Part shown: piece by piece, positions 26,042-29,330 of the stretch
How the letters are laid out: each line of letters opens with the position of its first letter
How positions within the stretch are numbered: the stretch's first letter is position 1
Assembly (NCBI GenBank): GCA_902805665.1
Contig: CADCTB010000177.1
Location: 1-47,348, forward strand
Origin: an uncultured Acidimicrobiales bacterium
GTDB taxonomy: Bacteria; Actinomycetota; Acidimicrobiia; Acidimicrobiales; AC-14
Direction: 5' to 3'
DNA length: 47,348 nucleotides
Translations under genes and position numbers: made by a program
The notes under the pieces: generated by a model
Told to the model about the DNA's origin: nothing
The model's database searches: none
The model's input: only the letters and a program-made list of their open reading frames with translations

Positions 26042-27172
26042 ATGCCCCGGGAAGTCCTGCAGTGGAAGCACCTCTACTCCGAGGTGGTCACGTCCGGCCT
26101 GTGCACAGGCTGTGCCGGGTGTGTCGTGGCCTGCCCCCACGACGTCCTCGGCTACGACGACAGGGAGGGGGTCTACAAGCCCTTCCACCTGGAGGAGGAG
26201 CTCGGGCCGGACAACTGCATCCACGGCGAGAAGGGCTGCACCTCGTGCACCCGGGCCTGCCCGCGCTTCCGCGGCTGGGAGACCGAGATCGACACCCACC
26301 TCTTCGGCCGGCCCCGCAACGCCGAGGAGGTCGACGGGGTCTCCAAGGACATCATCCTGGCCCGGGCGGCCGACCCCAAGATCAACGAGATCGGCCAGGA
26401 CGGCGGGCTGGTGTCGGCCATCCTCATCTGGGCCCTGGAGCACGGCTACATCGACGCCGCCCTCGTCTCCTACCTGGAGGGCGACGGCACGTCGTGGAAG
26501 GCCATCCCCGGCGTGGCCAAGACCCCCGAAGAGATCCTCGCCGCCGCAGGTAGCCGTTACACGTACTCGGCCAACACCATGGCCTACGCCCAGGCGGTGG
26601 AGGGCGGGGCCGAGAAGCTGGCCCTGGTCGGCATGAGCTGCATGTCGTCGGTCCCCCCCGTCATGACCGTCCGCAAGGCGGGGAAGCCGGCCCGGCGGTT
26701 CGTGCTCAACATCGGTCTCCTGTGCTCCAAGACCTTCGACGACGCCATCTTCGAGGAGCTCTTCGAGGCCAAGTACGGCCTCCGCAAGCAGGACATGGTC
26801 AAGATGAACATCAAGGGCGTCTTCCAGATCTGGATGCGCGACGGCAGCTACCACGAGGTGCCGCTCAAGGAGTGCCACGCCTGGACCCGCGAGGGCTGCA
26901 AGCTCTGCCCGGACTTCGCAGCCGAGCACGCCGACATCTCCACCGGCGGTATCGGGGCGTTCAACGACTGGACGCTGACGATCATCCGCACCGACATCGG
27001 CAGGGAGATCATGGTGAAGATGCTGCAGGACGGCACCATCGAAGGCCGCCCGGGCGACGACGACCCCGGCGCCATCGCCCTGCTGCGGAAGCTGTCGGTG
27101 AAGTCCCGGAAGCGCTGGCCGGAGACAGCCGTGCCCGCCCCCCGCCTCATGCCTGCTCCAGTAAAGAAATGA
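26042..27172 (+). CDS. F420 hydrogenase/dehydrogenase beta-subunit family protein (FrhB-like)
   Basis: A 376-residue iron-sulfur flavoprotein. The front has two cysteine clusters: Cys21, 24, 27, 31 (LCTGCAGCVVAC) and Cys59, 66, 69, 73 (C-x6-C-x2-C-x3-C in IHGEKGCTSCTRACP), enough for two [4Fe-4S] centres. The FrhB core follows: GQDGGLVSAILIWALEHGYID, VGMSCMSSVPP, LNIGLLCSKTF and CKLCPDFAAEHADISTGGIG. FrhB proteins bind FAD and exchange electrons with coenzyme F420, so the cell probably makes F420. No hydrogenase subunits are nearby. Its TGA overlaps the ATG of the DsbA-like gene (27169-27172). Confidence 0.92.
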   Translation: MPREVLQWKHLYSEVVTSGLCTGCAGCVVACPHDVLGYDDREGVYKPFHLEEELGPDNCIHGEKGCTSCTRACPRFRGWETEIDTHLFGRPRNAEEVDGVSKDIILARAADPKINEIGQDGGLVSAILIWALEHGYIDAALVSYLEGDGTSWKAIPGVAKTPEEILAAAGSRYTYSANTMAYAQAVEGGAEKLALVGMSCMSSVPPVMTVRKAGKPARRFVLNIGLLCSKTFDDAIFEELFEAKYGLRKQDMVKMNIKGVFQIWMRDGSYHEVPLKECHAWTREGCKLCPDFAAEHADISTGGIGAFNDWTLTIIRTDIGREIMVKMLQDGTIEGRPGDDDPGAIALLRKLSVKSRKRWPETAVPAPRLMPAPVKK

Positions 27173-27777
27173 GTGCCCGGGAGTTCGCGGTCACCTGGGA
27201 CTACCGCTGACCATTCGCCAGGAACTTCGCCGAGCACGTGCTGCTCGGCCAGCAGGCAGCAGGCGACGCGTGGCACGTGCGGTGGCTCGGGTTCTCGCTG
27301 AACCAGACAAGGCTCTCCGAGGGGGAGACCGCCGTCTGGGACGACCCGGAGATGGCGGCCACCCGGATGGCCGTCGAGGTGGGGATCGCCGTGCGGGACG
27401 GTTGGCCCGACGCATTCCCCGACGTGCACCGTGACCTCTTCGCCGCCCGTCACGACCGCGGGCAGGACCTCCGTGACCACAACGTCGTCGCCGACGTGCT
27501 GGTCAAGCGGGGGCTGGACCCCGATCAGGTCTTCGACGAGGTGCTGAGCTGCCGGCCCCGCGACGTCTTCCGCATCGAGCACCAGACGGCAGCAAGCGTC
27601 CACAAGGTCTTCGGGGTGCCCACCGTCATCGCCGCAGGTCAGGCGGTGTTCATCCGCCTCATCGACCGTCCGGGCACCGACGCCGGCAAGGCCCGTGACA
27701 CAGTCGAGCGCTGCGTCGACCTGGTCACCGGCTGGCCCAACCTCAACGAGTTCAAGCACACGACGATCCCGCACTGA
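27169..27777 (+). CDS. DsbA-family thiol oxidoreductase with in-frame TGA at the active-site Cys (candidate selenoprotein)
   Basis: The ATG at 27169 overlaps the FrhB stop (ATGA). The frame reads MSAREFAVTWDYR, then TGA at 27208-27210 (codon 14), then PFARNFAEHVLLG and on to a stop at 27777, 202 residues in all. From what I recall of actinobacterial DsbA-like thioredoxin-fold proteins, this position is the Cys of CPFAR. The rest is intact: FGVPTVIAAGQAVFIRL with the cis-Pro loop, and WPNLNEFKHTTIP at the end. A SECIS-like hairpin follows the TGA. The likeliest reading is selenocysteine at residue 14. The alternatives are a nonsense mutation or a base-call error. A start at the GTG at 27238 would remove the active site. 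It is probably a redox partner made together with the FrhB-like protein. Confidence 0.8.
27229..27249 (+). promoter_or_regulatory. Candidate bacterial SECIS hairpin
   Basis: GCCGAGCA (27229-27236) pairs perfectly with TGCTCGGC (27242-27249) around the 5-nt loop CGTGC, which contains two G residues. The loop starts 26 nt after the TGA at 27208-27210, inside the 16-37 nt range described for bacterial SECIS elements. The hairpin lies within the coding sequence, as bacterial SECIS elements do. GC-rich coding DNA can form such a stem by chance. Confidence 0.6.
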
Positions 27778-27816: not shown

Positions 27817-28239
27817 ATGGATCGAACTCTTGTCATCTGCAAGCCCGACGCGGTGGAGCGGGGGCTGGCCGGCCAGATCGTCGCCCGCCTGGAGGCCAAG
27901 GGCCTCAGGTTGGCCGCGGCCGAGCTACGCACCATCGACGCCGAGACCGCCGGCACGCATTACGGCGAGCACCAGGGCAAGCCCTTCTTCGACAGCCTGG
28001 TCAGCTTCATCACCCGGAGCCCGGCGCTGCTGATGGTGGTCGAGGGCCCCGAGGACACCTACGCAGTGGTGCGTACGCTGATGGGCGCGACCGACCCGAA
28101 GAAGGCGGCGCCCGGCACCATCCGTGGCGACCTCGCCATCGAGATGACGGAGAACCTGGTACACGGCTCGGACTCGCCCGAGTCGGCCCAGCGCGAGATC
28201 GCGCTCTTCTTCCCGGGATTGGGCTCCCCGGGGTTGTGA
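27817..28239 (+). CDS. ndk: Nucleoside diphosphate kinase
   Basis: A 140-residue enzyme that transfers the gamma-phosphate between nucleoside triphosphates and diphosphates (EC 2.7.4.6). [17 protein letters not shown] is the family start, TIRGDLAI binds nucleotide, and NLVHGSDS contains the phosphorylated His116. Full length. It sits upstream of mreB on the same strand, and the mreB promoter overlaps its stop codon, so mreB can be expressed separately. Confidence 0.97.
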
Positions 28240-28292: not shown

Positions 28293-29330
28293 ATGTCCGA
28301 CAACTTCTTTTCTGCATTTCTGGGTCGCGACATGGCTGTCGACCTCGGTACTGCCAACACCCTCGTCTACGTGCGCGGGCGGGGCATCGTCCTGAACGAG
28401 CCGTCCGTGGTGGCGGTCAACATCAAGGACGGGCGCCCCCTGGCCGTGGGCGCCGAGGCCAAGCGGATGATCGGGCGCACGCCCGGCCACATCCAGGCGG
28501 TGCGGCCCCTGCGCGACGGCGTGATCAACAACTTCGAGATCACCGAGAAGATGCTGCGGTACTTCATCACCCGGGTGCACCAGCGGCGCTGGGCCAAGCC
28601 CCGCATGGTGATCTGCGTGCCGTCGGGCGTCACCGGGGTGGAGAAGCGGGCGGTGCAGGAGGCGGCCGAGTACGCCGGCGCCCGGAAGACCCCGTTCATC
28701 ATCGAGGAGCCGATGGCCGCGGCCATCGGGGCCGGGCTGCCCGTCCACGAGCCCACCGGCAACATGGTGGTCGACATCGGCGGTGGCACCACCGAGGTGG
28801 CGGTCATCTCCCTGGGCGGCATCGTCACCAGCCAGTCGGTCCGCATCGGCGGCGACGAGCTCGACGACGCCATCATCCAGTTCATCAAGAAGGAGTACAG
28901 CCTCGCCCTGGGCGAGCGCACCGCCGAGGAGATCAAGATCGCCCTCGGCTCGGCGTACCCCTTGGAGCAGGAGCTGCGGGCCGAGATCCGGGGTCGCGAC
29001 CTCGTCACCGGCCTGCCGAAGACCATCGTCACGTCCACCGAAGAGGTCCGGCGGGCCATCGAGGAGCCGGTCACGGCCATCGTGGACTCCGTCAAGGTCA
29101 CCCTCGACAAGACCCCGCCCGAGCTGGCCGCCGACATCATGGAGGCGGGCATCGTCCTCACCGGTGGTGGGGCGTTGCTGCACGGGCTCGACGTCCGCCT
29201 GAAGGCCGAGACCGGGATGCCCATCGTCATCGCCAACAACCCCCTCTACTCGGTGGCGCTCGGCGCAGGGCAGTGCCTCGAGGAGTTCAACGTCCTACGG
29301 CAGGTGCTTTCCGGCAACAACGACAGGTAG
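28293..29330 (+). CDS. mreB: Rod-shape determining protein MreB
   Basis: A 345-residue bacterial actin that forms membrane-bound filaments guiding side-wall peptidoglycan synthesis. AVDLGTANTLVYVRGRGIVLNEPS is the first phosphate loop, MVVDIGGGTTEVAVISLGG the second, and GIVLTGGGALLHGL the adenosine site. A short N-terminal amphipathic stretch (DNFFSAFLG) can dock on the membrane. It opens the mreB-mreC-mreD-mrdA-rodA cluster. Its presence suggests a rod-shaped cell with lateral wall growth. Confidence 0.97.
   Translation: MSDNFFSAFLGRDMAVDLGTANTLVYVRGRGIVLNEPSVVAVNIKDGRPLAVGAEAKRMIGRTPGHIQAVRPLRDGVINNFEITEKMLRYFITRVHQRRWAKPRMVICVPSGVTGVEKRAVQEAAEYAGARKTPFIIEEPMAAAIGAGLPVHEPTGNMVVDIGGGTTEVAVISLGGIVTSQSVRIGGDELDDAIIQFIKKEYSLALGERTAEEIKIALGSAYPLEQELRAEIRGRDLVTGLPKTIVTSTEEVRRAIEEPVTAIVDSVKVTLDKTPPELAADIMEAGIVLTGGGALLHGLDVRLKAETGMPIVIANNPLYSVALGAGQCLEEFNVLRQVLSGNNDR

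Follow-up and report, generated by a model that had tools for sequence, protein, structure and literature searches.

The in-frame TGA at positions 27208-27210 (+ strand) of the window, the 47,348-nucleotide stretch of DNA analysed here, is proposed to be read as selenocysteine (Sec), codon 14 of a DsbA-like protein, with a probability put at about 0.92 on the basis of sequence analysis. This codon stands where homologs carry their invariant active-site Cys. Sec at a DsbA-like active site, as put forward in the original prediction, is supported by the pairing of Cys and TGA at one codon, by the recurrence of the TGA, by the Sec machinery of the genome and by a low dN/dS.

Gene structure and genomic context

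The dsbA-like gene was delimited by direct reading, translation, Pfam and homologs, and occupies 27169-27777 on the + strand (202 amino acids plus stop, with the internal TGA read through). Its ATG (27169-27171) shares the letters ATGA with the stop of the preceding gene. A complete DsbA-family frame broken by a single TGA had been described originally; reading and translation confirmed it with its coordinates unchanged, the frame being open up to the TGA at 27775-27777 and interrupted at 27208-27210 alone. With the internal TGA taken as a residue, the whole protein scored 40.2 bits against Pfam DSBA (PF01323; cut-off 25.6), and NCBIfam returned no model for it. A GTG at 27238-27240 (+), also named in the original prediction as a possible start for automatic annotation, was confirmed to be present; it lies inside the loop of the hairpin described below and opens an ORF of 179 amino acids that lacks the active site.

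The upstream neighbour is an F420-reducing hydrogenase beta-subunit-like gene (26042-27172, start approximate, +). Downstream lie a nucleoside diphosphate kinase-like (ndk-like) gene (27817-28239, +; name inferred from sequence) and, after it, an mreB-like gene (28293-29330). This order of four genes is retained in the same-genus relatives, as is the ATGA overlap. The genes adjoining the window copy differ from those of the three other TGA-containing dsbA genes found (L114, L115 and L116, in genomes G197, G112 and G037, respectively), all of which have a PD-(D/E)XK nuclease gene nearby. Neither set of neighbours (F420-hydrogenase-beta-like and ndk-like in the window, nuclease at the other TGA copies) gives a clue to function.

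Codon 14 in homologs

Homologs were taken from public-genome loci and from whole-genome searches of the family, the class, a relative's order, the phylum and the organism's own order (395 genomes for the class, 396 for the phylum and 397 for the own order, in overlapping sets). The 75 homologs extracted represent 72 different sequences, some rows being one genome under two names. Codon 14 encodes Cys in 71 of them (57 TGC, 14 TGT) and is TGA in the other 4, with no other codon seen, as expected if the TGA replaces the Cys of a CPFAR active site. The surrounding DYR[C/U]PFA is conserved with its flanks kept on both sides, and the protein sequence of codons 1-13, 5' of the TGA, is conserved as well.

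A search for the same TGA in related genomes, suggested at the outset, yielded three further copies, in three other families of the same class. The motif WDYR-U-PFARN of the window protein recurs in G112 and appears as FDYR-U-PFARN in G197 and FDYR-U-PFAYN in G037; a tRNA-Sec was detected in all three genomes (E 3e-13 or better). On a maximum-likelihood tree the 4 TGA rows correspond to 4 separate changes, the separation being forced by well-supported branches, which argues for repeated Cys/Sec exchange and against one inherited error. All 4 TGAs hit one codon out of about 200, and no further in-frame stop in the dsbA-like gene was listed in the searches of the 395, 396 and 397 overlapping genomes, so that only the catalytic codon is affected. 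Among the 396 phylum genomes no TGA form turned up beyond the class, and among the 397 genomes none turned up elsewhere in the order. Since the same-genus relatives of the window genome have Cys (TGC) at codon 14, the TGA codon rests on one assembly within the genus.

Selenocysteine machinery

The genome was searched for selA, selB, selC (tRNA-Sec) and selD, and all were found. The tRNA-Sec scored 65.2 bits and was called SeC by ARAGORN, with anticodon TCA; selA (405.5 bits; cut-off 267.9) lies directly upstream of selB (262.4 bits; cut-off 242.25), and selD scored 359 bits (cut-off 125). Because a tRNA-Sec is also present in many genomes whose gene has the Cys form, the machinery is taken to be necessary without forcing the Sec form. 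Two other genes of the genome carry an in-frame TGA, selD (HGAG-U-ACK; C210:32208-33122, locus L077, TGA at 2239) and a formate-dehydrogenase-alpha-like gene (ENQARI-U-HSS; C173:41738-42469, locus L122), which indicates that UGA is used as Sec elsewhere in this genome. One TGA is likewise seen in the selD of each of the two same-genus relatives, and a GTCCCC-GGTCT-GGGGAC hairpin follows the TGA of the formate-dehydrogenase-alpha-like gene.

SECIS-like hairpin

A SECIS-like hairpin is present at 27229-27249 (+), with an 8-bp stem GCCGAGCA/TGCTCGGC, a CGTGC loop and G at loop position 2. It begins 18 nt past the TGA, with a TGA-to-loop spacing of 26 nt and an energy of -13.6 kcal/mol, and falls within all the bSECIS rules given in the available text of PMC13188914 (loop 3-9 nt, stem 4-16 bp, G in the first two loop positions, spacing 16-37 nt, energy <= -7.5 kcal/mol). 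SECIS-like hairpins were found downstream of all 4 TGAs; in L073 and L074 the loop is GGTC, at a spacing of 29 nt (-9.3 each), and in L075 it is AGTTC, at 38 nt (-16.0), which exceeds the published range by one nt. Hairpins were stronger in TGA than in Cys genes (Mann-Whitney p 0.002, an optimistic value as the sequences are related), and the -7.5 kcal threshold was also passed by 25% of Cys homologs, including a same-genus Cys copy. For the four TGA genes, 7, 9, 10 and 15% of synonymous-codon shuffles gave a hairpin matching that of the real sequence, the fold of the whole segment did not surpass those of dinucleotide shuffles (z -0.46), and Rfam gave no SECIS match. The hairpin was accordingly dropped as strong support, the synonymous and dinucleotide shuffles showing that in this GC-rich DNA its support is mild; it is consistent with Sec insertion and no proof of it.

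In the same-genus genome G002, the Cys ortholog (L009/L020) has a perfect 8-bp SECIS-like hairpin after codon 14. It may have been left over from an ancestor with Sec, or may result from the shared AEHVLLG codons.

Selection and alternative readings of the TGA

Comparison of the TGA gene with the Cys orthologs of the same genus gave a dN/dS of 0.20-0.27, against about 0.23 for the Cys-Cys pair. The gene has no second lesion, and these two observations together indicate that it is not decaying. Disabling mutations in the homologs, which had been named as evidence against the proposal, were looked for and none was seen.

If the protein were an ordinary Cys enzyme whose real codon, TGC or TGT, had been misread in sequencing or assembly, a single base (TGC to TGA) in a fragmented draft assembly of 227 contigs would suffice, and TGC is what the same-genus relatives have. 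Against this, three further, distant genomes carry TGA at the identical codon and no other in-frame stop was listed in this gene of the homologs; random errors would not choose one codon in 4 genomes that all encode a tRNA-Sec, and an error is considered very unlikely. Recurrence also bears on the possibility of a pseudogene or truncated gene, in which the TGA would be a true stop and any translation would restart at the GTG at 27238, without the active site. The 179-amino-acid ORF from that GTG does exist, and on the tree the branch of the window gene somewhat exceeds those of its Cys relatives in length; nevertheless the protein sequence of codons 1-13 is conserved, dN/dS is as low as for intact Cys orthologs with no second lesion, and the stop at the catalytic codon arose independently more than once, making loss of function highly improbable.

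Decoding of the TGA as another residue, whether by near-cognate Trp or Cys insertion or through an alternative code, draws on the open frame only. Both the dsbA-like gene and the gene before it end in TGA, a Sec-specific tRNA with a TCA anticodon is encoded in the genome, and the aligned residue in the homologs is invariantly Cys, so that this reading is given almost no weight. All three alternatives were rejected on the recurrence at codon 14, the low dN/dS, the conserved codons 1-13 and the tRNA-Sec, leaving Sec as the preferred reading.

Predicted fold and proposed mechanism

Cys is conserved across the family at column 14 and nowhere else; position 17 holds Ala in at least 95% of homologs, and UPFA lacks a resolving Cys. 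A PDB sequence search from one sequence was uninformative, and a profile reached DsbA weakly. An AlphaFold model built from eight sequences with Cys placed at position 14 (pLDDT 81.5, pTM 0.77) predicts a DsbA fold plus a helical insert. Its closest solved structures are Deinococcus DR2335 (Z 18.3) and then M. tuberculosis Rv2466c (VIA-align Z 16.5, 180 aligned, rmsd 3.1; alignment start 2 to 7), with kappa-class glutathione transferases ranking after them. By the alignment starts, U14 falls at DR2335 C24 and Rv2466c C19 if the first ten residues are ungapped.

The UGA at codon 14 would be decoded by tRNA-Sec brought by SelB, as suggested by the machinery present, with the hairpin just 3' of the UGA guiding the SelB-delivered tRNA. 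Sec would then be the single active-site residue of a cytosolic DsbA-fold oxidoreductase that has Cys in most relatives. The U14 selenol is predicted at the N-terminal end of helix 1, beside the cis-Pro loop (GVPT, 149-152), and its target could be an oxidised substrate, for instance a disulfide, a mixed disulfide or a peroxide-like electrophile. UPFA is not CxxC and the family conserves no second Cys, so the selenenyl intermediate would depend on outside resolution, by a small thiol, plausibly mycothiol, or by a partner protein. An MshC-like gene (G000:C172:9905-10984), separate from a cysteinyl-ligase-like gene at C143, scored 413 bits, under the cut-off of 485, and suggests a mycothiol-type thiol in these bacteria. 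This catalytic scheme of monoselenol attack and outside resolution is offered tentatively, at somewhat short of even odds. In broader terms, the single conserved chalcogen, the fold matches to DR2335 and Rv2466c and the monothiol activity of NCgl2478 (see below) suggest a cytosolic reductase or transferase of monoselenol type that would rely on a small thiol for resolution.

Comparison with known proteins

Sec-containing DsbA-like proteins are already known (PMC1088965, PMC2398784 and, in its available text, PMC13188914). Those of the Sargasso Sea have UxxC (PMC1088965), and the GOS 'DsbA' selenoproteins have UxxC with a small UxxV group, 'DsbA 3' (PMC2398784). The window protein shares with these and with form 1 the DsbA family and the replacement of the N-terminal active-site Cys by Sec; whereas those proteins have UxxC, or UxxV in the small group, the window protein has UPFA and lacks a resolving Cys three residues after the proposed Sec.

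Closer is the 'DsbA-like protein form 2' of a 2026 catalogue, described in its available text as a PF01323 selenoprotein with the motif DxxUP (PMC13188914, citing PMC5029168). The entry as available there consists of the accession MDP6049977.1 only, with the odd alternative name crotonase family, and no crotonase neighbour to account for that name was present among the genes scanned. Both proteins belong to the same Pfam family and have a single Sec, and D11-Y12-R13-U14-P15 of the window protein fits DxxUP exactly. The two may be the same family, the comparison with the available entry being one of motif and Pfam family only. As Sec DsbA-like proteins are known and the motif matches form 2 as given in the available catalogue text, the window protein is placed, with good support, among the known Sec DsbA-like proteins and is no new kind of system. 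The term Acidimicrobi- is absent from the main text of the catalogue (PMC13188914), and no paper linking Acidimicrobiia with selenoproteins was found in the literature search.

Among proteins with Cys, the best structural match, DR2335 of Deinococcus radiodurans (7dk9/7dka), is DsbA-like and predicted cytoplasmic, with a single conserved Cys and no known function (PMC8945050). Both are single-chalcogen proteins, with Cys in DR2335 and Sec proposed here, at 18% identity. Rv2466c (Mrx2) and Corynebacterium NCgl2478 are actinobacterial mycothiol-dependent DsbA-like reductases. C19 is the nucleophile of Rv2466c, and NCgl2478 is active on mycothiol mixed disulfides with its nucleophilic Cys alone (PMC8280269). 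Rv2466c resembles the window protein in predicted fold and in the placement of the chalcogen at the C19 position, with about 16-20% identity in structural alignments; the active sites of the two reductases are CPWC/CPFC with a resolving Cys, unlike UPFA with its proposed Sec.

Implications

It is possible, at rather less than an even chance, that the UPFA proteins are an actinobacterial family not described before, made up of monoselenol enzymes with a DsbA fold and without any resolving Cys, with at least 4 independent exchanges between Cys and Sec inside one class that give natural Cys/Sec pairs, 78% identical in one genus. No function was recorded for the WDYRCPFAR enzyme family in the literature searched, and the Sec form, which would be trackable by 75Se, offers a handle on it. 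In an automatic annotation the active site of the window protein would be lost from view, as would probably that of similar genes in other Sec-using Acidimicrobiia. Four independent Cys/Sec exchanges in one class would mean that swaps happen readily where the Sec machinery is kept, and the same-genus Cys and Sec orthologs would constitute a natural experiment on what selenium contributes to a one-chalcogen DsbA-fold enzyme.
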